From Anaerotruncus sp. (GTDB taxonomy: Bacteria > Bacillota > Clostridia > Oscillospirales > Ruminococcaceae), in assembly GCA_021770005.1 (NCBI GenBank), contig JAETRV010000010.1, forward strand, positions 1 through 64,000: a DNA stretch of 64,000 bases. Reading direction: 5' to 3'. Positions 7,634 through 51,242 of the stretch are shown piece after piece. The notes beneath the pieces were generated by a model. It searched no databases, was not told the DNA's origin, and saw only the letters and a program-made list of their open reading frames with translations. The position numbers were made by a program, and so were the translations under genes. Each line of letters opens with the position of its first letter. Positions within the stretch are counted from its first letter, which is position 1.

Positions 7634-7927
7634 CTGTCGGGGTGGGGCCTACGGGGAGGGGGCGCTGCCCCCTATCCCGTAAGACAGCCCGCAGGGGCGT
7701 CGCGCGAAGCGCGCTTCGGGCCGCAGGCCTGAGCAGCCCCGAGGAGGGCGCTCTGCGCCCAGAAGTTTGGTCTGGAACCAAACTTCCTGCTGTCTCACTG
7801 CCCCTCGACCCCGCGATTTTTTGACTGCCGCCGCAGCGGCGTGCATAGGCCAACCGATGCGAAGCATCGGCTCTTGGGCCGGAGCAAAAAAATCGAGTAA
7901 AACTTTAGATATTAAATAGGTTCTAAG
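7634..7927 (+). repeat. Mosaic intergenic repeat family, copy A
   Basis: Shares modules cggggtggggcctacggggaggg, gcgcccagaagtttggtctggaaccaaacttc and right terminus atcgagtaaaactttagat..aataggttctaag with other copies. Confidence 0.7.
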
Positions 7928-11289: not shown

Positions 11290-11504
11290 CCACCCTGTTT
11301 GGAGAGCGCTTTGGGAAGGGGGCTTTTTCTCTTGCAAAAAGCCCCCTCTTGCCGCCTTTGGCGGCAGTTCACCCCCTCAATGCGCTTCTCAGGATAAAGA
11401 GTTCCGTCGCGTGCGCGCGGCGGCGGGGGCTCTGCCCCTCGACCCCGCAATTTTTCGAGAAAAATTGCGTAAAGCTTTCGATTCTGAATAGGCTCTTAGA
11501 GCCG
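11290..11504 (+). repeat. Mosaic intergenic repeat family, copy B
   Basis: gggggctttttctcttgcaaaaagccccctcttgccgcc module and right terminus attgcgtaaagctttcgattctgaataggctcttag. Confidence 0.7.
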
Positions 11505-25317: not shown

Positions 25318-26823
25318 ATGAGAGGTATCTATTCTTCTGTCACCGACATCCGGCGCAAGGTCTTTACCGAGGTTGCGCGCCTTGCCTACGAGGGCGGGGA
25401 TTATTCCCGCATCGAAGAGCTACCTTATAAAATCCTGCCCGGGGAGGTCGCCGGTTACCGGGATTCGATCTTTCTGGAGCGGGCGATCATCGGTGAACGC
25501 CTGCGTCTGGCCATTGGGCTGCCGCTGCGCCCGGTGGATGAACACGCCCCCCTTTCTCAGGGGATCGACGAGAGCGCAATCGCTGAAAAGTATTATGATC
25601 CGCCGCTGATTAATATCATCAAATTCGCCTGCAATGCCTGCCCCGATAAAAAATTCCATGTGACCGATGCCTGCCAGGGCTGTCTGGAAAACCCCTGCAA
25701 AGAGGTCTGCCCGAAAGGTGCCATCTCGATCCAACACGGCAAATCGGTGATCGACCAGTCCAAGTGTGTCAAATGCGGCCGCTGCAAGGATGTCTGCCCA
25801 TACGGGGCAATCCTCAAGTTCGAGCGCCCCTGTGCCAAGGCCTGCGGCATGGATGCTATTGGCTCGGACGAACATGGCCGCGCCACCATCAACTATGACA
25901 AGTGCGTCTCCTGTGGGATGTGCCTGGTCAACTGCCCGTTCGGCGCAATCGCGGACAAGGGGCAAATCTTCCAGCTCATCCAGTCGATCAAGAAGGGGGA
26001 CCGGGTCATTGCGATCGTTGCGCCCGCGTTCCTCGGGCAGCTCGGGCCCGACCTCACCCCTGAAAAGTTCAACAGCGCGATGAAGCAGCTCGGGTTCGAT
26101 AGCGTAGTCGAGGTTGCGATCGGCGCTGACCTGTGTACCATCGAGGAAGCCAAGGATTTCATGCGCGCCGTCCCCAACGAGCAGCCGTTTATGGCGACTT
26201 CCTGCTGCCCGTCCTGGTCGGTCATGGCGAAGAAGCTGTTCCCTGATCTCGCGCCTTACATCTCCATGGCGCTGACCCCGATGGTCCTGACCGCCCGTCT
26301 GCAAAAGAAGGAGCACAAAAACTGCAAGGTCGCCTTTATCGGCCCCTGCTCCGCCAAAAAGCTGGAGGCAAGCCGACGCACCATCCGCAGCGACGTTGAT
26401 TTTGTGTTGACCTTCGAGGAGCTGATGGGGATGGTGGTCGCCAAAGGGGTAGACTTCAAATCCTGTGAGGCGAACAAGCCGCTGATCGAGGCAACCGGCG
26501 CCGGACGTGGGTTTGCGGTGAGCGGTGGGGTCGCCCAAGCGGTTGCCGACGCGGTCAAGCGTCTCGATCCCAGCCGGGAGGTCAAGATCGCTTCTGCACA
26601 GGGCTTGCAGGAGTGCAAAAAGATGCTCATGCTCGCCAAGGCCGGAAAATACAACGGCTACCTGTTGGAAGGGATGGGCTGCCCGGGCGGATGTGTCGCC
26701 GGTGCGGGTACCCTCCAGCCGACTGCAAAATCTTCCGCGGCAATCGCCAAATACAAAAAGGACGCCGAGCTTCAGAATGCGCTCGACTCCAAATACGAGA
26801 TCACCCTCACCCTGCTGGATTGA
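25318..26823 (+). CDS. Monomeric [FeFe] hydrogenase (group B-like)
   Basis: Multiple ferredoxin-type Cys motifs; H-cluster motifs TSCCPSW, GPCSAKKLE, EGMGCPGGCVAGAG; start at MRGIYSSV, not at the extended ORF. Confidence 0.88.
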   Translation: MRGIYSSVTDIRRKVFTEVARLAYEGGDYSRIEELPYKILPGEVAGYRDSIFLERAIIGERLRLAIGLPLRPVDEHAPLSQGIDESAIAEKYYDPPLINIIKFACNACPDKKFHVTDACQGCLENPCKEVCPKGAISIQHGKSVIDQSKCVKCGRCKDVCPYGAILKFERPCAKACGMDAIGSDEHGRATINYDKCVSCGMCLVNCPFGAIADKGQIFQLIQSIKKGDRVIAIVAPAFLGQLGPDLTPEKFNSAMKQLGFDSVVEVAIGADLCTIEEAKDFMRAVPNEQPFMATSCCPSWSVMAKKLFPDLAPYISMALTPMVLTARLQKKEHKNCKVAFIGPCSAKKLEASRRTIRSDVDFVLTFEELMGMVVAKGVDFKSCEANKPLIEATGAGRGFAVSGGVAQAVADAVKRLDPSREVKIASAQGLQECKKMLMLAKAGKYNGYLLEGMGCPGGCVAGAGTLQPTAKSSAAIAKYKKDAELQNALDSKYEITLTLLD

Positions 26824-28599: not shown

Positions 28600-29053
28600 T
28601 GGCATGCCCCCTCTGGATCGGAAGGATCCGGAGGGGGCTTTTTCTCTTGTAAAAAGCCCCCTCTTGCCGCCCAAAGGCGGCAATTCACCCGAAAAATACG
28701 CTTCACAGGATAAAGTATTTCGCTCATTGCGATGAGCGGCCAAAGGCTCTGCCTTTGGAAACCGCGATTTTTTGAAAAAAATCGAGTAAAACTTTAGGGC
28801 TTGTTTGAAAATAGAGAAATTGACGGATTTTTCGCAAAAAATGAGCAGCTGCAAGGAAAAAAGCGCAGGAATACTTGATGTATTCCGAGCATTTTTGACG
28901 CGGCAGATGCCGCTTTTTGTAGAAAAAGACAGTAATTTCGATTTTTCAAACAGCCCCTAGAGCTTGAATAGGCTTTAAGAGCCGCCTTCGGCGGTTGACC
29001 TCCCCGAGGAGGGCATCCTGCGCCCATAAGTTTGGTCTGGAACCAAACTTATG
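28600..29053 (+). repeat. Mosaic intergenic repeat family, copy D (interrupted by nested MITE)
   Basis: gggggctttttctcttgtaaaaagccccctc..atcgagtaaaactttag | MITE | agcttgaataggctttaagagcc..cataagtttggtctggaaccaaacttatg. Confidence 0.7.
28798..28957. mobile_element. Nested MITE-like element with TAG target duplication
   Basis: TIRs ggcttgtttgaaaat / atttttcaaacagcccc flanked by TAG..TAG. Confidence 0.6.
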
Positions 29054-32650: not shown

Positions 32651-33070
32651 ATGAAAGACTATATAGCGAAGCGGGTACACGAATTGTACTGGGAACAAGA
32701 TGTAAATTGTGCGGTAGCCTCGCTGCTCTGTTTGGGTGAATGTTTCAAAATTCCCATTGAGCCGCAAACCATTTGTGCCGCAGCCGGACTGCATGGTGCG
32801 GGCGGATACAGGGCGCAATGTGGTCTGGTGGAAGGCGCGCTCATGTTTATCGGGATCTATCTTCATGCGCTGGGAAAAACAGAAGATGAAATTGTATCTG
32901 CTTGTTATCATTTTGCGGCTGCCTTCGACCGCACATTTGGCTCGTTAAGATGCTTGGAATTGCGTCCTTCAGGTTTTTCAGAAACCGATCCGCCGCATAT
33001 GTGCGAAGGTCTAACCTGCAATGGGATTGCATTTGCATACCAGTCTATTTTAAAGATGGAAAAGCAGTAG
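32651..33070 (+). CDS. C_GCAxxG_C_C family putative redox protein
   Basis: NCAVASLLCLGE..GAGGYRAQCGLVEGALMFIG Cys pattern. Confidence 0.75.
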   Translation: MKDYIAKRVHELYWEQDVNCAVASLLCLGECFKIPIEPQTICAAAGLHGAGGYRAQCGLVEGALMFIGIYLHALGKTEDEIVSACYHFAAAFDRTFGSLRCLELRPSGFSETDPPHMCEGLTCNGIAFAYQSILKMEKQ

Positions 33071-33181
33071 AGGAATTCCAGTTTATGAGAAGGTTACCCT
33101 CGTCGGGTAACCTTCTCTTTATATATTTGCATAAAATTTTGTAGATTGTGCAAAAAAATAGGGGGATTTTGAGGAATATTG

Positions 33182-33210
33182 TTGACAAGATTTGTCCAAT
33201 TTGATATTCT
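33182..33210 (+). promoter_or_regulatory. sigma-A promoter for Rrf2-family gene
   Basis: TTGACA-17 nt-TATTCT. Confidence 0.65.
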
Positions 33211-33232
33211 ATTAACAAAGGAGGGGCTGTAC

Positions 33233-33667
33233 TTGTTTATTACACGCGAGACCGACTATGCGCTGCGGATCCTCCGCGCGCTTGCGGACGGGAACCGCCG
33301 GAATCTATCACAGGTCTGCGAGCAGCAGATGGTCCCCTCCTCCTTCGCCTACAAGATCATCCGGAAGCTGGAAAAAGCGGGGTATCTTACGGTATCACGC
33401 GGCACCGGCGGAGGGTGTACGCTGACCGCCGACCTGCAAGCGCTGACCCTCTTTGACCTGCTCGGCGCGATGGGGGAGGACTGCCGGATCAATGCCTGTA
33501 TCGACCCGGCGTTCGACTGCTCATGGCGGAACCGGTATGGGGCCTGCCCCACCAACCACTGCCTCTGTGAAATTCAGAGGACGATCAACGCCGAGCTCCA
33601 ACGGCATACGCTCCATCAGCTATTGTTCAGCGATGAGGAGGGAAAGCCGGAGGGTGTTTCGGGATAA
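33233..33667 (+). CDS. Rrf2 family transcriptional regulator
   Basis: FITRETDYALRILRALADGNRRNLSQVCEQQMVPSSFAYKIIRKLEKAGYL; Cys-rich C-terminus; TTG start proposed. Confidence 0.88.
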   Translation: MFITRETDYALRILRALADGNRRNLSQVCEQQMVPSSFAYKIIRKLEKAGYLTVSRGTGGGCTLTADLQALTLFDLLGAMGEDCRINACIDPAFDCSWRNRYGACPTNHCLCEIQRTINAELQRHTLHQLLFSDEEGKPEGVSG

Positions 33668-33677
33668 GAAACAGGCG

Positions 33678-34201
33678 TTAAGGGCCTGTTCAGAATCTTT
33701 TGCAGGGGATATCTTTCTCTTGCAGAAAGCCCTTTCTTGCCGGGGTGGGGCCTACGGGGAGGGGTCGCCGATCCCTATCCCGCAAGACAGCCCGCAAGGG
33801 GCGTCGCGGCGGATGCCGCGCTTCGGGCTGAAAGCCCGAGAAGCCCCGAGGAGGACGCTTTGCGCCCGGAAGTTTGGTCTGGGGCTAAACTTCCAGCTGC
33901 CCCGCCCCCGCAATTTTTCAAGAAAAATTGCGTAAAGCTTTTGGCTAAGGGAAAAGAGAGGAGCTCCCCCCAGCTTGCCGGGGTGGGGCCTGCGGGGAGG
34001 GGTCGCTGACCCCTAGCCCGCAAGACAGCCCGCAAGGGGCGTCGCGGCGGATGCCGCGCTTCGGGCTGAAAGCCCGAGAAGCCCCGAGGAGGGCGCTTTG
34101 CGCCCGGAAGTTTGGTCTGGGGCCAAACTTCCAGCTGTCCCGCCCCCGCAATTGTTCGAGAAAATGGAGTAAAGCTTTCGATTTTGAATCGGCTCTTAAA
34201 A
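33678..34201 (+). repeat. Mosaic intergenic repeat family, copies F1/F2 in tandem (period about 238 bp)
   Basis: Left terminus ttaagggcctgttcagaatc, right terminus gattttgaatcggctcttaa; gccggggtggggcct...cccgcaa nearly identical twice (33739 and 33977). Confidence 0.8.
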
Positions 34202-34229: not shown

Positions 34230-36113
34230 ATGAACCAGTGTTATGGATGCAACACCTGCCAAAGTGCGGATAAGCCGCTCGAAAGCTACATCCGTTCCCT
34301 GCCGATGCAAACCTCCCACCACCGGGTGGAGGACCAGTCGGTCAAATGCGGGTTCGGCCTGCAAGGGGTCTGCTGCCGGCTCTGCTCCAACGGTCCCTGC
34401 CGGATCACCCCGGATGCTGGCCGCGGCATCTGCGGCGCCACCGCCGACGTGATCGTCGCCCGCAATTTCCTGCGCGCAGTCGCGTCCGGGTCGGGCTGCT
34501 ACATCCATGTTGTGGAAAACACCGCGCTCAACCTCAAAAATACCGCCCTGGCCAAAGGGGTTATCAAAGGCGAAAAGGCACTTGCCCACCTCTGTGAGCT
34601 GTTTGGGATCGAGCAGGGGGACAAATATGAAAACGCGCTCGCAGTGGCGCAGAAGGTGCTTGACGACCTGTACAAGCCCGAATACCAGAAGATGGAGCTG
34701 GTCGAAAAGCTGGCATACGCTCCACGCTACAAAAAGTGGCGGGAATTAAATATTCTGCCGGGCGGTTCGAACGCAGAGATTGTCAAGGGTGTGGTAAAAT
34801 GCTCGACCAATCTGAACTCCGACCCGGTTGACATGCTGCTGACCTGTCTGAAGTTGGGCATCTCGACCGGACTTTACGGTTTGACCCTCACCAACCTGCT
34901 CAATGATGTGATGCTCGGCGAACCGGAGATCCGTCCTGCGCCGGTCGGGCTGGGCGTGATCGACCCCGATTACATCAACATCATGATTACCGGGCACCAG
35001 CACTCGACCTTCTCCTATTTGCAGGACCGCCTGATCGAACCGGATGTGGTCGAAAAAGCGAAAGCGGCGGGTGCGAAAGGCTTCAAACTGGTTGGGTGCA
35101 CCTGTGTCGGGCAGGATTTGCAGCTGCGCGGCGCACACTACACCGAGGTGTTCGACGGCCACGCGGGCAACAACTACACCTCCGAGGCGGTGCTCGCAAC
35201 CGGCGGGATCGACGCGGTGCTTTCCGAGTTCAACTGCACGCTGCCGGGTATCGAACCGATCTGTGACGAGCTCAAGATCAAACAGATCTGTCTGGACGAC
35301 GTTGCGAAGAAAGCGAACGCGGAGTACCGTCCGTTTGTCTTTGAGACCCGCAAGGAGGACAGCGACGCGATCATCGACGCGATTATCGAGGCATACAAGG
35401 CCCGCCGCGGCGTGGTACCGCTCAACCTGCTGCCCGAGCACGGCAACAAAAATACCATCACCGGTGTTTCGGAGGTTTCGCTCAAGCAGTTCCTCGGCGG
35501 GAACTGGAAGCCGCTCATTGATCTGATCGTGTCGGGCGACATCAAGGGGGTTGCCGGCGTGGTTGGCTGCTCCAACCTGACGTTTGGCGGTCATGATGTA
35601 CTTACCGTTGAGCTGACGAAAGAACTGATTAAACGGGATATTATCGTCCTGTCGGCGGGCTGCTCGTCGGGCGGGCTGGAAAACTGTGGCCTGATGACCC
35701 CCGAAGCCGCCGAACTTGCGGGCCCCAAGCTCCAAGCGGTCTGCAAAAAGCTGGGAATCCCGCCCGTGCTCAACTTCGGGCCCTGCCTCGCGATTGGACG
35801 GCTTGAGATCGTCGCGACCGAGCTGGCCCAGGCGATTGGCGTTGACCTGCCGCAGCTCCCACTGGTCCTCTCCGCGCCCCAGTGGCTGGAAGAGCAGGCG
35901 CTGGCGGACGGTGCGTTCGGGCTGGCGCTCGGCCTGCCGCTGCATCTGGGCGAGCCGCCGTTCATCACCGGCAGCAAGCTGGTGACCAAGGTGCTGACCG
36001 AGGATATGAAGTCCCTGACCGGCGGGCAGGTCGTGATTGATCCGGATGGGCAGTCGGCGGCCGAACGCCTGGAAAAGATCATTCTGGAAAAACGTGCCGG
36101 GCTGAATATATAA
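34230..36113 (+). CDS. CooS-family anaerobic CO dehydrogenase-like protein (divergent active site)
   Basis: CGFGLQGVCCRLCSNGPCRI..GICGATADVIVARNF B/D-cluster region; GHQHS, LVGCTCVG, FNCTLPG, VVGCSN, SAGCSSGG, NFGPC C-cluster ligands. Confidence 0.85.
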   Translation: MNQCYGCNTCQSADKPLESYIRSLPMQTSHHRVEDQSVKCGFGLQGVCCRLCSNGPCRITPDAGRGICGATADVIVARNFLRAVASGSGCYIHVVENTALNLKNTALAKGVIKGEKALAHLCELFGIEQGDKYENALAVAQKVLDDLYKPEYQKMELVEKLAYAPRYKKWRELNILPGGSNAEIVKGVVKCSTNLNSDPVDMLLTCLKLGISTGLYGLTLTNLLNDVMLGEPEIRPAPVGLGVIDPDYINIMITGHQHSTFSYLQDRLIEPDVVEKAKAAGAKGFKLVGCTCVGQDLQLRGAHYTEVFDGHAGNNYTSEAVLATGGIDAVLSEFNCTLPGIEPICDELKIKQICLDDVAKKANAEYRPFVFETRKEDSDAIIDAIIEAYKARRGVVPLNLLPEHGNKNTITGVSEVSLKQFLGGNWKPLIDLIVSGDIKGVAGVVGCSNLTFGGHDVLTVELTKELIKRDIIVLSAGCSSGGLENCGLMTPEAAELAGPKLQAVCKKLGIPPVLNFGPCLAIGRLEIVATELAQAIGVDLPQLPLVLSAPQWLEEQALADGAFGLALGLPLHLGEPPFITGSKLVTKVLTEDMKSLTGGQVVIDPDGQSAAERLEKIILEKRAGLNI

Positions 36114-36130: not shown

Positions 36131-36580
36131 ATGAAAAGGATTCTGATTGATGCGGACAAGTGCGATGGCTGCAAAAACTGTTCGATCGCCTGCATGAACG
36201 CCCACCGGACCGACGGCGGGGACAGCGTCTATACCCTTGACCTGAACGACCCGGCGAACGAAAGCCGCAACTTCATCCGGCTGGACGGGGACGGGCATTA
36301 TAAGCCGATCTTCTGCCGCCATTGTGATGTCCCGATGTGCGCGGGGAGCTGTATGAGCGGCGCGCTCCAGAAGGATCTGCAAACCGGGCTGGTCACCTAT
36401 GATGAGGATCGGTGCGGCTCCTGCTATATGTGCGTCATGAACTGCCCATACGGGGTGCCAAAGCCCGACCGGGTTTCCCGCACAAAGGTCATCAAATGCG
36501 ATTTCTGCAAAGACAAGGGCGGCGAGCCGAGCTGCGTCAAAGCCTGCCCGAAAAAAGCGATCTGGGTAGAGGAGGTATAA
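36131..36580 (+). CDS. CooF-like 4Fe-4S ferredoxin protein
   Basis: CDGCKNCSIACMNAH, CRHCDVPMCAGSC, CGSCYMCVMNCPYGVPK, CDFCKDKGGEPSCVKACP. Confidence 0.9.
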   Translation: MKRILIDADKCDGCKNCSIACMNAHRTDGGDSVYTLDLNDPANESRNFIRLDGDGHYKPIFCRHCDVPMCAGSCMSGALQKDLQTGLVTYDEDRCGSCYMCVMNCPYGVPKPDRVSRTKVIKCDFCKDKGGEPSCVKACPKKAIWVEEV

Positions 36581-36581
36581 G

Positions 36582-37817
36582 ATGCGGCATCTGATTATAG
36601 GCGCTTCCGCGGCGGGGATTACAGCGGCTAAAACCATCCGCCAGTGGGAGCCGGAGGATGAAATCACGGTGGTGTCGGCTGACACACAGGTGCATTCCCG
36701 CTGTATGCTCCATCATTTCCTGAGCGGCCACCGTACCGCCGAGGGGATCAACTTTGTGTCCGAGGATTTTTTTGAGAAAAACCACATCCGGTGGCTGAAG
36801 GGTGAGCGGGTGGACCGGGTGGACACCGCCGCCAATCTGGTGCACCTTGACTGCGGCGCCGAGGTCCCGTATGACCGCCTGCTGCTCGCTTCGGGCGCAA
36901 ACTATTTCATCCCGCCGCTCCCCAACTTCCGGGAGGCGAAAAACGTCTATGGGCTGCGCGATCTTTCGGATGCACAGAAGATCAGCAAGGCAGCGGAGGG
37001 CAGCAAACAATGCGTGATCGTCGGTTCGGGCCTGGTCGGGCTGGATGCCGCAAACGCCCTTTGTGAACGCGGGATCAGCTGTGCGATTGTCGAGATGGCC
37101 GACCGGATTTCCCCGCTTCAGCTCGACGCGATTGCTGCTAAACCCTATCAGAAGCTGTTCGAACAAGCGGGCTGCACCTTCTACCTCGCAGAAAAGGCCG
37201 CAGGTTCCGAGATCGACGCACAGGGCAATATCACATCCATTTCGCTCGAGAGCGGGACTGTCCTGCCTTGTGATTTCGTGGTGGTAGCGGCAGGGGTGCG
37301 CCCGGCGATCGGCTTCCTCGAGGGCAGCGGGATCAAGACCGGCCGCGCGGTTGAAGTGGACCGCTATCTGCGCACCAACGTTGAAAATGTGTGGGCGGCG
37401 GGCGATGTCGCCGGAATCACCGGCATCTGGCCTAACGCGATGGAGCAGGGCGAAACCGCCGCAAAGAATATGTGCGGCGCCCAAGTCCCCTATGAAAACA
37501 CCTACGGGATGAAAAATACCATGAACTTCTATGGCCTGACCACCCTTTCCCTCGGGATCAATACCCCACAGGAGGGGGACGAGGTGGTTGTCCGGGAGAG
37601 CCGGGAGAGCTATAAGCGTGCCATCCTGCGGGACGGCGTGGTCACCCATGTGATCCTTCAGGGCGATATCTCCAATTCCGGGTTCTGGCAGGAGCTGGTC
37701 AAGCATCATATCCCGGTGGGGCACCTGAAAAAATCGGTGTTCGACCTGAGCTACGCCGATTTTTACCAGTATGACCCCAAGCATGGCCTCTTCGAATGGA
37801 AGGTGCCACAGGCATAA
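36582..37817 (+). CDS. FAD/NAD(P)-dependent oxidoreductase
   Basis: MRHLIIGASAAGITAAKTIR, VIVGSGLVGLDAANAL, VWAAGDVAGI. Confidence 0.92.
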   Translation: MRHLIIGASAAGITAAKTIRQWEPEDEITVVSADTQVHSRCMLHHFLSGHRTAEGINFVSEDFFEKNHIRWLKGERVDRVDTAANLVHLDCGAEVPYDRLLLASGANYFIPPLPNFREAKNVYGLRDLSDAQKISKAAEGSKQCVIVGSGLVGLDAANALCERGISCAIVEMADRISPLQLDAIAAKPYQKLFEQAGCTFYLAEKAAGSEIDAQGNITSISLESGTVLPCDFVVVAAGVRPAIGFLEGSGIKTGRAVEVDRYLRTNVENVWAAGDVAGITGIWPNAMEQGETAAKNMCGAQVPYENTYGMKNTMNFYGLTTLSLGINTPQEGDEVVVRESRESYKRAILRDGVVTHVILQGDISNSGFWQELVKHHIPVGHLKKSVFDLSYADFYQYDPKHGLFEWKVPQA

Positions 37818-38042: not shown

Positions 38043-39293
38043 TCACAGCTTTCGGGTGAAAATATCGCTCTCTTCGAGCAGGGCCTCCACAGTCTCGATC
38101 CCCAGCCGCCGCAGCAGTTCGATCACATAGGGGTTATCGATCGGGGTCGGAAACGCGGCTGCATCCCCATAAGCCGCGACGTTCTCCCGCCCCTGCTCGG
38201 TCGGAATCACACGCTTCGGCCCGCCGACACATCCGCCGGGGCACCCCATCCCTTCAAAAAAATTGGCATTGGAGGTCCCTTCGAGTACCTCCTGCATCAT
38301 CTGCCTGCATGAAGGAACCCCATCCGCACTGCGTACCCGCACCTCAACCTTGCGGTGTGGGTTCAGCCGCTCCACGGTTGATTTCACCGCCTCGCCCACT
38401 CCGCCCGCGTGTGCATAAATCCGGCCTGCGCGGGAGGAATGATCCTTCTCCTCGTCCGGCAGGGTGGAAGGGTCAATCCCGGCGGCAGTAAATACCTCCC
38501 GGATTTCCTCAAAGGTCAGCACATAATCCACCGCACCGGCGAGGTCAGGCTCGCGGGCTTCGGCTTTTTTGGCAAGGCAGGGACCGATAAAAACGGTGAG
38601 CGCATCCGGATGGAGGGCCTTTACTGCCCGTCCACAGGCGACCATCGGGGAAACTGACGGGGGCAGATGCGGGATAAGCTGGCTGTAAACCTTGCGGATC
38701 ATCCCGATCCAAAGCGGACAACAGCAGCTTGTGAGCTGGTAATCCCCCTCTTTGCGGATATTTTTATCAAATTCAAACGCCTCTTTCAGGGTGAGGATGT
38801 CGGCAAACAGGGCAACCTCCACCATGCCGTCGAAGCCGAGCTTTCGGAATGCGCTGCGCAGCATCCCGGGCGTGACCTGTGCACTGAACTGTCCGTGAAA
38901 CGCCGGAGCTACCAGCACATAGGCCAGCCCTTGATGGTTCCGGACCGCCTCAAGCGCGGCGACCACATCCTTTCCCGCTACAATTTTGTGCCCCCGGCAG
39001 GCCTCCACACAGGCGGTACATCCGGTACACCGGGTCATGTCGATTGCAATATGGCCGTTTCCGTCCGGAGCAGCCGCGTCAAACCCGCACGCCTCCACGC
39101 AAGCGGGGGTCCCGCCCGGACAGTCGCATTCCGCCAGCTTCCAGACGACCGGATATTTTTTCGGACTGAGCAGACAGTCAAGCTGTTTGGGGTCGTACTC
39201 CTCGCTTGCCTTAATCTGGCGCACCGCCTCGGGCAGGTTGCGCCGCACCGCTGCCGCCAGCAGCGTCTGGTAAAGCTCCTCAAAAGTTGCCAT
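38043..39293 (-). CDS. [FeFe] hydrogenase-like protein with reduced ferredoxin domain
   Basis: CTGCTACVEACRG, SCCCPLW, GPCLAKKAE, EGMGCPGGCVGGPK. Confidence 0.82.
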   Translation of the reverse strand: MATFEELYQTLLAAAVRRNLPEAVRQIKASEEYDPKQLDCLLSPKKYPVVWKLAECDCPGGTPACVEACGFDAAAPDGNGHIAIDMTRCTGCTACVEACRGHKIVAGKDVVAALEAVRNHQGLAYVLVAPAFHGQFSAQVTPGMLRSAFRKLGFDGMVEVALFADILTLKEAFEFDKNIRKEGDYQLTSCCCPLWIGMIRKVYSQLIPHLPPSVSPMVACGRAVKALHPDALTVFIGPCLAKKAEAREPDLAGAVDYVLTFEEIREVFTAAGIDPSTLPDEEKDHSSRAGRIYAHAGGVGEAVKSTVERLNPHRKVEVRVRSADGVPSCRQMMQEVLEGTSNANFFEGMGCPGGCVGGPKRVIPTEQGRENVAAYGDAAAFPTPIDNPYVIELLRRLGIETVEALLEESDIFTRKL

Positions 39294-39384
39294 AAAAACT
39301 CCCCTTCCGATATGGTCCATCTGAAAGATAGCGTAACCAGAAAGGGAATTTTTATGTGGGACGCCGGTTGATAAACGAGGGGGC

Positions 39385-40860
39385 TTATCTCGGCTGTACT
39401 TCCAGCGTGAATTCTTGCGGGCCCTGGTCCTTTTCCTTGCTGTAAAGGACCGTCCGGATGCTGCTTTTCAGCAGGCGGTTTTTTCCGGACGCATCCTCTG
39501 TCTCATAAAGATGCAGGATCGTCCGAATCGCTTCGGCCTCTGGATCGTGGGGCTCCTCCTGCATCTGCACAAGCTGGCTTTCCAGACGGTTTGCGGTCTC
39601 GTACAAGGAAATGCGCTTCTGTTCGATTGTATGGAACCTTTTCCGGAAGGTCTCCGGGGTATAGACACCCTGTTCCAATAGATCATGAAGCCTGTCAAGC
39701 TGTCGTTCGACGCTGGAAATTGTTCGGCGCACCTGCTCAAGCGCATGAAGCGTTGCGGTGTTATCGGAGGGAGCGGGAGCCTGCACCTGAATACCGGCCA
39801 ACATCTCCGCGAGCAGGCCGAGCAGTTCCGCTTCGACATAAGCGATGTTGGAGGATTTGCAGTCACATTGCCGGTTGGGGCATTTTAGGTAGCTCCACCG
39901 GCCCTTGGAGGTCTGCACTACCATTCTGGAACCGCACTTTTTGCAGACACAAATTCCGGCGAGCGGGTTCCGCACCACCCCGGTATAGCAGGGCGGATGC
40001 CAACGCTCATGCAGGATTTTGCCTGCCTGCCGCCAGACCGCTTCGTCGATGATCGGGGGATGCAGCCCATCCACGACAATCCAGTCGTCCTCCGGGCGGT
40101 TGGCAGCACTGCGCCCGCTTTTTCCATTGTGGACACCGACGGTGCGGTTATAAAAGATCTTCCCGGCATAGACCGGATTTTTTAGGATGTGCCGGACCGA
40201 AACGGCGGCAAAGCGGTCCGACCGTCTCGGCTGCGCCCCCAGCGCGTTGATCTGATCCGCGATCGCCTGGCACCCAATCCCTTGGTGGACGTACAGGTCA
40301 TAGATCATACGCACAAAATAAGCCTCCTCCTCAACAATCCGGAGGGTCGGCCGTTTCCCGACATGGTCGCGCGCATAACCATATGGAACGCTGGAGACAT
40401 GTCCCCCTTCTTTTACCGTCTGAAGAATACCGCGATGCAGCCGCTTGGTGATCATCTTGTATTCCCTTCGAGAAAGAAAGGTCTTGAATTCGGTCAGTTC
40501 TTCGTCCAGATCGTCGTTGAGGTCATAGACCTTTTCGAGGGTCACGATCTTGGTCCCGGAACATTTGAAGGCATCCAGAATGATCCCTTGATCCCGCATC
40601 CCGCCGCGCCCAAGGCGGTCGATGTCCACACAGAGGACCGAATCATACATCCCGTTTTCCACATCCTCCAGCAGCTGCATCATCTGCGGCCGTAGGTACA
40701 GGCTGTCCCCTGTCACAACCTCTTCATAATAGCGGGCAATCAAAAGCTGATGCTGGTTTGCAGCTGCTTGCAGCTGCATCTTGTGGCGGGAAAGGGTCTC
40801 TTCGAGCGGCTCGCCTGGATCGTCCGAACGGCTTTTGCGCAGATAGACCGCGGATGCCAT
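39385..40860 (-). CDS. Large serine recombinase (resolvase + zinc ribbon + coiled coil)
   Basis: AVYLRKSRSDD, CVDIDRLGRGG, recombinase domain, CVCKKCGSRM..CPNRQCDC. Confidence 0.92.
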   Translation of the reverse strand: MASAVYLRKSRSDDPGEPLEETLSRHKMQLQAAANQHQLLIARYYEEVVTGDSLYLRPQMMQLLEDVENGMYDSVLCVDIDRLGRGGMRDQGIILDAFKCSGTKIVTLEKVYDLNDDLDEELTEFKTFLSRREYKMITKRLHRGILQTVKEGGHVSSVPYGYARDHVGKRPTLRIVEEEAYFVRMIYDLYVHQGIGCQAIADQINALGAQPRRSDRFAAVSVRHILKNPVYAGKIFYNRTVGVHNGKSGRSAANRPEDDWIVVDGLHPPIIDEAVWRQAGKILHERWHPPCYTGVVRNPLAGICVCKKCGSRMVVQTSKGRWSYLKCPNRQCDCKSSNIAYVEAELLGLLAEMLAGIQVQAPAPSDNTATLHALEQVRRTISSVERQLDRLHDLLEQGVYTPETFRKRFHTIEQKRISLYETANRLESQLVQMQEEPHDPEAEAIRTILHLYETEDASGKNRLLKSSIRTVLYSKEKDQGPQEFTLEVQPR

Positions 40861-46173: not shown

Positions 46174-46421
46174 TCTCCCTTTTCCCCTTGACCGAAAGGC
46201 CGGGGGGAATTTGTATTCCCAACCCCTTATTACCTGCCAAGCGCCCAGCCGCCACATTCGGCTCTGGCGCGGACCCATACAGAACGGTTGGATTCCGGCC
46301 ATTGTTCCCTATTTTTCTACTGATTCTGTATTTTATAGCCAAATAACTTGTTCCTGTTTCATAAATGTGTTACAATGACTGCAAAGCAGCGGAGGAAATT
46401 TCAACCGACAGGGAGCAGGGT

Positions 46422-49400
46422 ATGGCGGCATCCATCGTATTTATCGACAGCGAAATCGGCATGACAGACGGAAAGGTCATGGACCTGGGGGCAATCCGGC
46501 AGGATGGCGCCTGTTTTCATTCTGCCTCGTTACAGGATTTCTCCGCCTTTCTCTCCGGCTCCGATTTCATATGTGGCCACAATATCATCCATCATGACCT
46601 GAACTATATCCAGAGGCAGCACAATATCCCGATTCCGGCAGGCATCGTGGACACCCTCTACCTCTCTCCCCTGTTGTTCCCGCAAAGGCCCTACCACGCG
46701 CTTTTGAAGGATGATAAGCTTCAGGCGGACGAGCTGAACAATCCGCTCAATGACGCCCAGAAGGCGCGGAAGCTCTTTTTTGATGAGGTGAACGCCTTTT
46801 CTGAACTGCGCCCCAATCTCGGGCAGATTTACTATGGCCTGCTGAACCAGTTCGAAGAGTTCAAAGGCTTTTTCGCATACATAGGCTACCAGCCGCGCCC
46901 CCTGAACCTCCCGGAGCTGATCCAAGCGGAATTCTCGGGTAGGGTTTGCGAGCATGCGGATATCCGCCTCCTGATTGCGGAACATCCCATCGCATTGGCC
47001 TACGCGCTGGCCTTGATCGATACCAATGATTCCCATTCGATCACCCCGCCATGGCTGACCCAGAACTATCCGCAGATCGGGTTTGTGATCAAGGCGCTTC
47101 GCGGCACCCCCTGTCGGGCCGGCTGTGCCTATTGTACCGGCGCCCTGAACATCCACCGGAAACTGAACGAATTTTTTGGTTTTGATGGGTTCCGCACCTA
47201 TGGCGGCGAGCCGCTTCAGGAAAGGGCGGCACAGGCGGCGGTGGATGGGAAATCGCTGCTCTCGGTGTTCCCCACCGGAGGCGGGAAGTCGGTCACCTTC
47301 CAGCTGCCCGCCCTGATGGCTGGGCAGGCGGAGCATGGGCTTACCGTCGTAATCTCCCCGTTGCAATCACTGATGAAGGACCAGGTGGACAACCTGAACG
47401 AGCGGGGGATCGCCGACGCCGTTACGGTGAACGGGCTTCTCAGCCCTATCGAACGGGCCGAGGCGCTGGAACGGGTCGCAAGCGGGCGGGCCTCGCTGTT
47501 TTACCTATCGCCGGAACAACTGCGCTCCCGCACCATCGAGAAGCTGCTCTATTCCCGCAATGTGGTCCGCTTCGTCATTGATGAAGCGCACTGTTTTTCC
47601 GCCTGGGGGCAGGACTTCCGGGTGGACTACCTGTATATCGGGGACTTTATCCGCGAGCTACAGGAGAAAAAACAGATGCATACCCCGATCCCGGTTTCCT
47701 GCTTTACGGCAACCGCAAAGCAGAAGGTCATCAGCGACATCCGCGATTATTTCAAGGAAAAACTGGGGGTGGACCTCGAGCTGTTTGCATCTGCTGCTGT
47801 GCGGGAAAATCTGCATTACGTTGTGCTGCATCAGGAAACGGAGGATGAAAAATACAATACGCTCCGCTCGCTGATCGAAACGCACCCCTGCCCAACGATC
47901 GTCTACGTCTCCCGGACCAAGCGGTCGAAGCAGCTCGCAGAAAAGCTGACAGGCGACGGCTTTCCCGCGCGCCCGTTCTACGGCAAGATGGAGCCCAGCG
48001 AAAAGGTGGAAAACCAGGAAGCTTTCATCCGCAACGAGGTCCGGGTGATCGTCGCCACCTCCGCTTTTGGCATGGGCGTCGATAAAAAGGATGTTGGGCT
48101 TGTGGTCCACTACGATATCTCGGATTCCCTCGAAAACTATGTGCAGGAAGCGGGTAGGGCAGGGCGTGACCCCGCCCTTTCCGCCGAATGCTATGTCCTG
48201 TTCAACGATAACGACCTGGACAAGCATTTCCTCCTGCTGAACCAGACCAAACTGAGCATCAGTGAAATCCAGCAGGTTTGGAAAGCCATAAAGGACCAGA
48301 CCAAAAACCGCGCTACCGTCTGCTGTTCCCCGCTGGAAATCGCGCGGCAGGCGGGGTGGGACGATTCGGTCAGCGATATTGAAAGCCGGGTCAAATCCGC
48401 TGTCGCCGCGCTCGAGAACGCGGGGTATGTCAAACGCGGGCGAAACGTACCCCACATTTACGCAACCAGCATCTTCCCCAAGAATATGGTGGAGGCCAGC
48501 TTCAAGATCGACCGTTCCAAACTGTTCTCCCATTCTCAGAAGACCAGCGCCAAGCGGATCATTCAGCATCTCATCTCCTCCCGCAGCCGTGCGGTTGCGG
48601 GAAACGATGACGCGGAATCCCGCGTCGATTATCTCGCCGACATCCTGGGAATCCCCAAGTTCGAGGTGATAGAATGCGTCAACCTGATGCGTCAGGCCGG
48701 GCTTCTGGCCGACTCGAGGGACATGTCCGCCTTTCTCTTCAAGAACGACACACAGAACCGCTCCGCCTTGATGCTCGGTCGTTTTGCCCGGCTGGAACGG
48801 TTCCTGCTCTCCAAGATCGGGGAACAGGAGAATGGCTTTGCACTGAAAGAGCTGAACGAAGAGGCTGCGCGCGAAGGGATCGCCTATACTTCGGTCAAAA
48901 ATATCCGCACCATCCTCTATTATCTGACGATCAAAGGCTACATCACCAAACGGGAGTACTACGACCAGCAATATGCGGTTGTGATTCCGCTGGTGGAATC
49001 TTCCAAGCTGGTTGAAAAGTTCCAGAAGCGGGTGGACCTCTGCCAGTTTATCGTGAAAAAACTGTACGCCCTCAGCGTCCCCTCCGATTCCTCGGAGGAG
49101 AAAGGCGAAACCTTTGTCCAGTTTTCACTGGTCGGGTTGTACCAGGACTATCTTGCACAGTCCAAGGGCAACCCCTCGGTCCCCAAAATTTCCCTCAAAG
49201 ATGTGGAGGATGCGCTTTTGTATCTGTCCAAAATTGGCGCCATGCGGCTGGAAGGCGGGTTCCTCGTTCTTTATAATGGTATGGAGATCAACCGGCTGGT
49301 CCTTGACAATAAAATCCGTTATAAAGTGGAGGACTATAAAACGCTGAATGCGCACTATAAACAGAAAATCCAGCAGATCCACATTGTCGGTGAATACGCA

Positions 49401-51242
49401 AACCTGATGGTCCGCGATTATAACGCCGCGTTGCAGTTTGTGCAGGATTACTTCCAGCTCGATTACAGGAAGTTCCTCGCCAAATATTTTAAAGAAGAAC
49501 GCGCCAAAGAAATTGACCGGAATATTACTCCGGAAAAATACCGGCAGTTGTTTGGCGAGCTTTCGGAAACCCAAGCAAGCATCATCAATGATTCGGAGTC
49601 CAGATATATTGTGGTGGCTGCCGGACCCGGAAGCGGAAAAACGCGCGTCCTGGTCCACAAGCTGGCGGCGCTCCTGCTCCTCGAGGACGTCAAGCACGAA
49701 CAGCTCCTGATGGTGACCTTTTCCCGCGCCGCGGCCACCGAATTCAAAAAGCGGCTGATTGCCCTGATCGGCAATGCGGCCAACTTTGTCGAGATCAAAA
49801 CCTTTCACTCCTACTGCTTTGACCTGCTGGGCAAGATCGGCAGTCTGGAAGGGGTGGAGGACGTGGTCAAAAATGCCGCAGAGATGATCGAAAACGGCGA
49901 GGTCGAACCCGGCCGGATTGCCAAAACCGTACTGGTCATCGACGAAGCGCAGGACATGGACAGCAATGAATACCGGCTGGTCCGCGCGTTGATGCAGCGC
50001 AATGACGACATGCGTGTGATTGCCGTGGGGGATGATGACCAGAACATCTACCAGTTCCGCGGTTCGGATTCCAAATATATGCACGCCCTGATTGAGGAGT
50101 TTGGCGCTGTGCAGTACGAGATGACCGAAAACTACCGCAGCAGCAGGGCAATCGTCTCTCTTGCGAATCTGTTTGCCCGTTCGATCGAAAACCGGATGAA
50201 ATCGGAGGAGATCAAAGCCATCCGCAAAGAGGCCGGCACAGTTCAGATCATCCACCATACCAGCGCGCACCTGGAATATCCGGTTGTGGAGCAGATCGCC
50301 AGAACCTACCGCGGCGGGAAGGTCTGCGTCCTGACGAATACCAACGAAGAGGCCCTCCGGGTGCTCGGCCTGCTGACCAAACGCAATATCCGCGCGAGGC
50401 TGATCCAGTCTATGGATGGGTTCCGTCTCTATAACCTCTCTGAAATCCGGTTCTTCCTGAAGGTCGTGGACCAGAAGCGCGGCTTGGCCCCGGTTATCAG
50501 CGACCGGGCCTGGGAGGAAGCGAAAGACCGGCTCCAAACGGTTTACCGCGGCAGCACCTGCCTTGAGGTCTGCCTGAACCTCATTGCTGAGTTTGAAAAG
50601 GTGAACCGCCGCGAAAAATACTTCAGCGACCTCAAGGAATTTGTCATGGAATCGCAATATGAGGACTTTTATTCGGATGATCTGGAAACCGTATCGGTCT
50701 CGACCATCCACAAATCCAAGGGACGGGAATTCGACAGCGTCTACTTGCTGTTAAACCATGTCCAGATGTACAGCGACGCCGACCGCCGCAAACTGTATGT
50801 CGGCATCACCCGCGCCAAAAGCAATCTGTACATCCATTGCAATACCGGCCTCTTTTCCATCTTCCATCTGCCGGATGTTGAAAAGCGCGAGGACTTCACC
50901 GCATATCCAGAACCGGAGGAGATCACGCTCCAACTGACCCATCGGGACGTTGTCTTGGGCTTTTTCAAGGGAAAGAAGCCGCTGGTTACCAGGCTCCGCA
51001 GCGGATGCCCGCTCACGGTTGACCACGAGTACCTTCTGGCCCGGGTGGAGGGGAAGCTGTTCCGCGTTGCGAAATTTTCCAAAGCCGCTGTCGACCGGCT
51101 GCACTTTTTGAACCGGAAAGGGTACCGCCTGGTTTCCGCAAACGTGCGCTTTATTGTTGCGTGGAAAGGAAAAGAGGATTCCGAAGAAACAGCGGTCCTA
51201 CTGGCGGATATCCACCTATCCAGCCGTGTTTCTGAAGTGTAA
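46422..51242 (+). CDS. Giant multidomain DEDD exonuclease-like / RecQ helicase / UvrD-Rep helicase fusion
   Basis: FIDSEIG..GHNIIHHDLN; FPTGGGKSVTFQ..VIDEAHCFSAWGQDFR..FGMGVDKKDV; AAGPGSGKTRVLVHKL..VIDEAQDMD..VSTIHKSKGREFDSVYLL. Confidence 0.92.
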   Translation: MAASIVFIDSEIGMTDGKVMDLGAIRQDGACFHSASLQDFSAFLSGSDFICGHNIIHHDLNYIQRQHNIPIPAGIVDTLYLSPLLFPQRPYHALLKDDKLQADELNNPLNDAQKARKLFFDEVNAFSELRPNLGQIYYGLLNQFEEFKGFFAYIGYQPRPLNLPELIQAEFSGRVCEHADIRLLIAEHPIALAYALALIDTNDSHSITPPWLTQNYPQIGFVIKALRGTPCRAGCAYCTGALNIHRKLNEFFGFDGFRTYGGEPLQERAAQAAVDGKSLLSVFPTGGGKSVTFQLPALMAGQAEHGLTVVISPLQSLMKDQVDNLNERGIADAVTVNGLLSPIERAEALERVASGRASLFYLSPEQLRSRTIEKLLYSRNVVRFVIDEAHCFSAWGQDFRVDYLYIGDFIRELQEKKQMHTPIPVSCFTATAKQKVISDIRDYFKEKLGVDLELFASAAVRENLHYVVLHQETEDEKYNTLRSLIETHPCPTIVYVSRTKRSKQLAEKLTGDGFPARPFYGKMEPSEKVENQEAFIRNEVRVIVATSAFGMGVDKKDVGLVVHYDISDSLENYVQEAGRAGRDPALSAECYVLFNDNDLDKHFLLLNQTKLSISEIQQVWKAIKDQTKNRATVCCSPLEIARQAGWDDSVSDIESRVKSAVAALENAGYVKRGRNVPHIYATSIFPKNMVEASFKIDRSKLFSHSQKTSAKRIIQHLISSRSRAVAGNDDAESRVDYLADILGIPKFEVIECVNLMRQAGLLADSRDMSAFLFKNDTQNRSALMLGRFARLERFLLSKIGEQENGFALKELNEEAAREGIAYTSVKNIRTILYYLTIKGYITKREYYDQQYAVVIPLVESSKLVEKFQKRVDLCQFIVKKLYALSVPSDSSEEKGETFVQFSLVGLYQDYLAQSKGNPSVPKISLKDVEDALLYLSKIGAMRLEGGFLVLYNGMEINRLVLDNKIRYKVEDYKTLNAHYKQKIQQIHIVGEYANLMVRDYNAALQFVQDYFQLDYRKFLAKYFKEERAKEIDRNITPEKYRQLFGELSETQASIINDSESRYIVVAAGPGSGKTRVLVHKLAALLLLEDVKHEQLLMVTFSRAAATEFKKRLIALIGNAANFVEIKTFHSYCFDLLGKIGSLEGVEDVVKNAAEMIENGEVEPGRIAKTVLVIDEAQDMDSNEYRLVRALMQRNDDMRVIAVGDDDQNIYQFRGSDSKYMHALIEEFGAVQYEMTENYRSSRAIVSLANLFARSIENRMKSEEIKAIRKEAGTVQIIHHTSAHLEYPVVEQIARTYRGGKVCVLTNTNEEALRVLGLLTKRNIRARLIQSMDGFRLYNLSEIRFFLKVVDQKRGLAPVISDRAWEEAKDRLQTVYRGSTCLEVCLNLIAEFEKVNRREKYFSDLKEFVMESQYEDFYSDDLETVSVSTIHKSKGREFDSVYLLLNHVQMYSDADRRKLYVGITRAKSNLYIHCNTGLFSIFHLPDVEKREDFTAYPEPEEITLQLTHRDVVLGFFKGKKPLVTRLRSGCPLTVDHEYLLARVEGKLFRVAKFSKAAVDRLHFLNRKGYRLVSANVRFIVAWKGKEDSEETAVLLADIHLSSRVSEV

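Follow-up and report, generated by a model that had tools for sequence, protein, structure and literature searches.

The branch of CO dehydrogenases (CODHs) closest to the protein analyzed here is clade C, described as having a complete C-cluster together with replacement of the catalytic His by Tyr and of the catalytic Lys by Gln (Inoue et al., 2019; PMC6344411). Group C-1 of this clade is marked by an additional N-terminal cysteine motif, and groups C-1 and C-2 are linked to genes for an FAD-dependent NAD(P) oxidoreductase (FNOR), a CooF-like ferredoxin subunit (COG0437), and an NsrR/IscR-like regulator (Inoue et al., 2019; PMC6344411). Gut bacteria commonly carry clade C, which accounts for 179 of 1380 human-gut CODH genes (PMC11338639). 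According to a survey published in eLife in 2026, which doubted its representativeness, the CooS of Thermoanaerobacter kivui is the only clade C enzyme to have been isolated (PMC13056359). For the purified CooS-CooF1 complex, CO oxidation rates of 13.9 U/mg (methyl viologen) and 0.5 U/mg (ferredoxin) and a Km for CO of 5 µM are reported (PMC8683389), and deletion of T. kivui cooS abolishes growth on CO. The two sources differ on the strain: the survey speaks of a CO-adapted strain (PMC13056359), and the original Methods of DSM 2030 transformed for production (PMC8683389). Lys563 and His93 of C. hydrogenoformans CODH-II are regarded as the residues responsible for acid-base chemistry in Ni-CODHs, and an enzyme without them is readily labelled "inactive"; K563A and H93A mutants of CODH-II are present in the PDB. 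A statement linking the clade C replacements to the activity of the T. kivui enzyme was not found in the literature examined.

The window, a stretch of 64,000 nucleotides of Anaerotruncus sp. DNA, carries an open reading frame at positions 34230-36113 (+ strand) for a CooS homologue of 627 amino acids. Its product scores 780.9 bits against TIGR01702, the NCBI model of the catalytic subunit (cut-off 478), 495.8 bits against Pfam Prismane, and 22.2 bits against TIGR01703, the model of the hybrid-cluster protein (HCP), far below the cut-off of 360.8. A predicted monomer model (mean pLDDT 76.8, with residues 1-60 below 50) bears out the CODH fold and gives CooS-V of C. hydrogenoformans as the top fold match (TM 0.86). 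We aligned the protein with 158 CODHs of related loci and with reference rows taken from solved-structure alignments (CODH-II, CODH-IV, the D. vulgaris and Thermococcus AM4 CODHs, and CooS-V). Columns were numbered by CODH-II, whose row is a PDB variant chain, and the numbering was verified at C39, C47, C48, C51, C56, C70, H93, and K563.

The window protein is a complete, full-length CooS in which all ligands of the B-, C-, and D-clusters are kept. The D-cluster residues C40 and C48 and the B-cluster residues C49, C52, C57, and C68 (34347-34433, +) correspond to CODH-II C39, C47, C48, C51, C56, and C70 and do not vary among 104 clade C sequences. The C-cluster set of one His and five Cys comprises His256 (CODH-II His261), encoded with Gln257 and His258 at 34995-35003; Cys292 (Cys295; 35103-35105), likewise invariant among the 104; Cys336 (Cys333; 35235-35237); Cys447 (Cys446; 35568-35570); Cys478 (Cys476; 35661-35663); and Cys519 (Cys526; 35784-35786), all on the + strand. 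The His-Gln pair is invariant in the same set, and at the third residue of the triplet (position 263) 94 of the 104 have His and the other 10 have Gln. The D-cluster is of type II (C40-x7-C48-C49), and it is accompanied by an N-terminal motif, C4-x2-C7-x2-C10 (34239-34259, +), in which C7 and C10 are invariant and C4 is conserved in at least 90% of 30 gut relatives; the alignment shows no such motif in T. kivui CooS.

Around these ligands the residues held to carry out acid-base chemistry are replaced. In place of the His93 and Lys563 typical of CODH-II and of clades E and F, the window protein has Tyr91 and Gln556; Thr213 (34866-34868, +) replaces Asp219 and is invariant in the 104 clade C sequences, and Ala and Ile replace D528 and N529. 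Within Cys90-Tyr91-Ile92-His93 (CODH-II positions 92-95; 34497-34508, +), Cys90 and His93 are newly gained and the Cys, Tyr, and His are invariant in the clade C set, whereas His96, His99, and His102 of CODH-II are represented by Val94, Asn97, and Leu100. The triplet Glu554-Glu555-Gln556 (35889-35897, +) is invariant in all 104, T. kivui CooS included, and its first Glu (CODH-II position 561) stands at the position of HCP Glu494 and CooS-V Glu556 (PMC6344411, PMC9311411). A sequence-only reading of this DNA had claimed that every metal ligand is retained, that the His ladder is lost (GHSGHAKHLAH versus CYIHVVENTAL), that the Lys has become Gln, and that an extra N-terminal Cys motif is present. 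Each of these claims was borne out, and the by-eye alignment of the ladder proved exact to the residue, so that an alignment error can be ruled out.

In a tree of 68 rows, the window protein falls within clade C with support of 100/100 and groups with sequences from gut Oscillospiraceae and Lachnospiraceae. The Tyr/Gln, Tyr/Lys, and His/Lys types each form one group, and the Tyr/Gln group has support of 100/100; it is identified as clade C by T. kivui CooS and the Tyr/Gln signature, and not by Inoue's C-1 representative. Nineteen active-site positions are invariant in the 104 clade C sequences, which come from several families and two phyla, compared with 24% of columns overall; the set was drawn by Tyr93 and Gln563, and invariance at those two positions is therefore a matter of selection and not a result. 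The invariant positions (CODH-II numbering) include Cys92, His95 (window H93, the gained His two residues past the Tyr), Thr219, His261-Gln262, Thr294-Cys295-Val296, Pro525, Ile529, Glu561-Glu562, and Asp567. Because neighbouring active-site positions that were not used in drawing the set are also invariant, the replacements are not the product of chance or decay. They are a fixed trait of the whole clade, described in 2019, and no peculiarity of the window gene. With its C-cluster, its His-to-Tyr and Lys-to-Gln replacements, its D-cluster type, its Cys motif, and its neighbouring genes, the window gene is a clade C cooS of group C-1, a new member of an already described branch. Nothing sets it outside this group; its host carries this CODH alone, with no CooC detected.

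The neighbouring genes are those of group C-1. An Rrf2-family (NsrR/IscR-like) regulator (33179-33667, +; Pfam Rrf2, 71.6 bits) lies upstream, and a CooF-like ferredoxin subunit of 149 amino acids with 16 Cys in four 4-Cys groups (36131-36580, +; Pfam Fer4_11) begins 18 bases past the end of cooS, followed by an FNOR of 411 amino acids (36582-37817, +; Pfam Pyr_redox_2 and Rubredoxin_C). Among the 86 related loci with sufficient downstream sequence, CooF directly follows cooS in 74 and FNOR lies downstream in 80; an Rrf2 homologue was found upstream of cooS in 31 of 80 related loci. The same order of cooS, Fe-S subunit, and oxidoreductase, judged by published gene order, is seen for cooS1 of C. 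autoethanogenum (assigned to clade C by Bohm and Land) and for CD0174-0176 of C. difficile. An RNA search near the operon found no nickel/cobalt riboswitch or other RNA element, its sole match, below threshold, being a ribosomal L21 leader that precedes a different gene, and a promoter scan gave nothing above chance.

The purified clade C enzyme bears directly on what the replacements mean. The T. kivui CooS gene (TKV_c08080) is our locus L169, in which both published cloning primers (PMC8683389) match exactly; both acsA primers match in L178, another locus of that genome, and L168 is 95.7% identical to L169, 96% being the value reported for Aceticella. With the window protein, T. kivui CooS shares Cys92, Tyr93, Asn99, Thr219, His261-Gln262, Thr294-Cys295-Val296, Glu561-Glu562-Gln563, and Asp567, as well as the identical block APQWLEEQALADG; it also has a partner CooF. 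The ratio of CooS to AcsAB activity is 6.5% with viologen and 0.45% with ferredoxin (calculated here from Table 2 of PMC8683389). If AcsAB had been carried over, the ratio would be equal with both acceptors; since the two ratios differ, carry-over is ruled out as the source of the activity, and CooS itself accounts for most of the viologen activity. A CODH can thus oxidize CO, slowly, with Tyr93 and Gln563 in place, and the residue losses do not abolish CO chemistry. Judged by this homologue, loss of the Lys and His does not by itself mean a changed function. The sequence-only reading had proposed a different substrate or a sensing role from kept ligands and missing acid/base residues, and had named prior knowledge of the clade as an active CODH as grounds for giving this up. 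Its premises stand, and one clade member, T. kivui CooS (PMC8683389), is such an active CODH; the enzyme's Tyr93, Gln563, Thr219, and Glu561 weaken the proposal, although a non-CODH function may still apply in the Anaerotruncus host.

A whole-genome search placed the gene in a setting with little dedicated CODH machinery. The host assembly (2.93 Mb, 96.5% complete) contains one CODH. It gave no match to acetyl-CoA synthase (ACS; TIGR00316), the partner expected of a CODH/ACS (Wood-Ljungdahl) subunit, although the same search detected the family in five of its ten genomes, so that the absence of ACS, noted earlier for the window and confirmed there, extends to the whole assembly. Likewise, no match was obtained in the assembly for HCP or for CooC, CbiM, and HypB, genes that may sit in assembly gaps; a LarA-type family is present and suggests that nickel use in the cell is possible. 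Two relatives whose CODHs are 99% and 90% identical to that of the window (G002 and G021, respectively) also lack matches to ACS, CooC, CbiM, and HypB. At the thresholds used, CooC was found in none of the nine genomes in which clade C is the only CODH (G000, G002, G021, G385, G382, G439, G461, G372, and G459), and it was present in each of the four genomes with CODHs of the His/Lys type that served for comparison (G465, G104, G024, and G041). A published operon-level result has CooC accompanying clades A, E, and F, and the CooC-less clade-C-only genomes extend it to whole genomes. In such hosts the nickel site may be unfilled, and these genomes make nickel loading directly testable. In a same-genus relative (G007), a locus (L197; G007:C99:14000-33900) holds a cluster of acsB, CFeSP, CooC, fhs, and folD without acsA, and the single CODH detected in the genome of this relative, on another contig, is of clade C.

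We consider it probable, at roughly 0.6, that the window CooS is a slow, stress-linked CO:NAD(P) oxidoreductase that retains CO chemistry. The protein would most likely still build a C-cluster and slowly turn CO into CO2, with the joint loss of Lys563, Asp219, and His93 to Gln, Thr, and Tyr giving an altered proton-handling set. The invariant Cys92, Tyr93, His95, and Glu561 would substitute for or flank the lost residues, and from their positions in the alignment any of these four is a candidate proton carrier. Electrons would pass from the C-cluster to the B- and D-clusters, then to CooF and the FAD of FNOR, and finally to NAD(P)+. Since the genome has no ACS, CO oxidation would be the useful direction, with no obvious use for CO2 reduction, and the role would probably be low-capacity CO scavenging or relief of redox stress rather than growth on CO.

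This reading is favored by the clade C signature and the 100/100 tree placement, by the replacements shared with T. kivui CooS, by the 19 invariant positions, and by the retention of CooF and FNOR. A link to stress is suggested by C. difficile, in which the cooS-cooF-FNOR operon is a strong target of sigma factor B (cooS log2FC 8.3 under sigma-B overproduction) and is lowered in a fur mutant, and by induction by oxygen in C. ljungdahlii, as cited by Inoue et al. Counting against it, a C. autoethanogenum acsA mutant that retained the clade C cooS1 did not consume CO, which argues against ready CO oxidation, and an assay of any gut-bacterial clade C enzyme was not found in the literature examined. 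T. kivui CooS is, moreover, the earliest clade C branch and just 54% identical to the window protein; it differs in His96, Gln263, and Ser528 and in its lack of the N-terminal Cys motif and of FNOR, and its host has AcsAB and CooC. The lack of CooC, HypB, and CbiM in the Anaerotruncus host, and of CooC in the nine clade-C-only genomes, weighs on the same side.

The strongest alternative, which we regard as unlikely but as a serious possibility, is that the cluster of the protein is iron-only or hybrid in this host and that the protein acts as an HCP- or CooS-V-like reductase of NO, hydroxylamine, or another oxidant, with electrons from NAD(P)H reaching it by reverse flow through FNOR and CooF. 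Glu554 at the HCP Glu494 position, CooS-V as the top fold match, the NsrR/IscR-like regulator, and the stress regulation in C. difficile all fit such a reductase. So do the missing CooC, HypB, and CbiM, and with HCP also missing the protein could fill the HCP niche. CooS-V itself (clade D; PMC9311411) shares the CODH fold, Tyr93, Glu561, and Asp567 with the window protein but is 34% identical to it, keeps Lys563, and has Glu in place of Cys295, an Fe-S-O cluster, and no CO activity; HCP shares the superfamily and the Glu at position 561 but has Glu where the window protein has Cys292. The exchange of Cys295 for Glu marks the hybrid-cluster subclade of CooS-V (clade D group D-1), yet each of the 104 clade C sequences retains the Cys, which together with the TIGR01703 score of only 22 bits rules out membership in the CooS-V/HCP group. 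The CO oxidation by T. kivui CooS with the same residues and the possible nickel use indicated by the LarA-type family also speak against a reductase. With Cys295 kept and a Glu at position 561, clade C unites the full CODH cysteine set with the HCP glutamate. A tentative and rather doubtful extension is that its second sphere (Cys92-Tyr93-x-His95, Thr219, and Glu561-Glu562-Gln563) has been re-invented and that gut hosts build the cluster without a dedicated nickel insertase, possibly as an iron-only cluster performing hybrid-cluster chemistry on a CODH fold.

Less probable again is that the protein acts as a sensor of redox conditions or CO, or as a regulator, with no significant turnover. 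The 2026 genomic-context survey proposed this for clades C and D on the basis of what their operons contain and of knock-out phenotypes (PMC13056359). That T. kivui CooS is less active than AcsAB is consistent with such a role, and in a host without detectable CooC the window protein may be redox-modulating or regulatory; however, the operon supplies a full electron path through CooF and FNOR that a sensor would not need, and in T. kivui the enzyme turns over and growth on CO depends on it. Decay into a nonfunctional CODH, to which the loss of both textbook acid/base residues and the lack of ACS and CooC might point, is hardly credible in view of the open frame, the intact ligands, the operon kept in most loci, and the replacements fixed across 104 sequences of several families and two phyla, a conservation that rules out a pseudogene. 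A CO-oxidizing CODH naturally free of the Lys and His provides a ready test of which residues carry protons.

Several other features of the window were noted. The stretch that separates the Rrf2 gene from cooS holds two tandem copies (33731-33930 and 33974-34164, 95% identical) of a dispersed, GC-rich repeat about 190 bases long; a further copy lies at 7635-7792, with fragments at 11432-11467 and 29002-29050, and the repeat is also present in Anaerotruncus sp. G3 (L012, 1082-1782). A gene for a C_GCAxxG_C_C redox protein (32651-33070, +) lies just upstream of the Rrf2 gene and has no counterpart close to cooS in those related loci that were examined. Two genes for group B-like [FeFe] hydrogenases are found at 25420-26823 (+) and 38043-39320 (-). 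The second converges on FNOR and scores 293 bits against TIGR04105, under the cut-off of 450; its type does not adjoin cooS in the related loci examined. Next to it is a large serine recombinase with Resolvase, Recombinase, and zinc ribbon domains (39385-40860, -), possibly the mark of a mobile element. Further downstream, a gene at 46365-51242 (+) encodes a protein of 1625 amino acids that fuses DEAD-box/Helicase_C and UvrD-type helicase parts.
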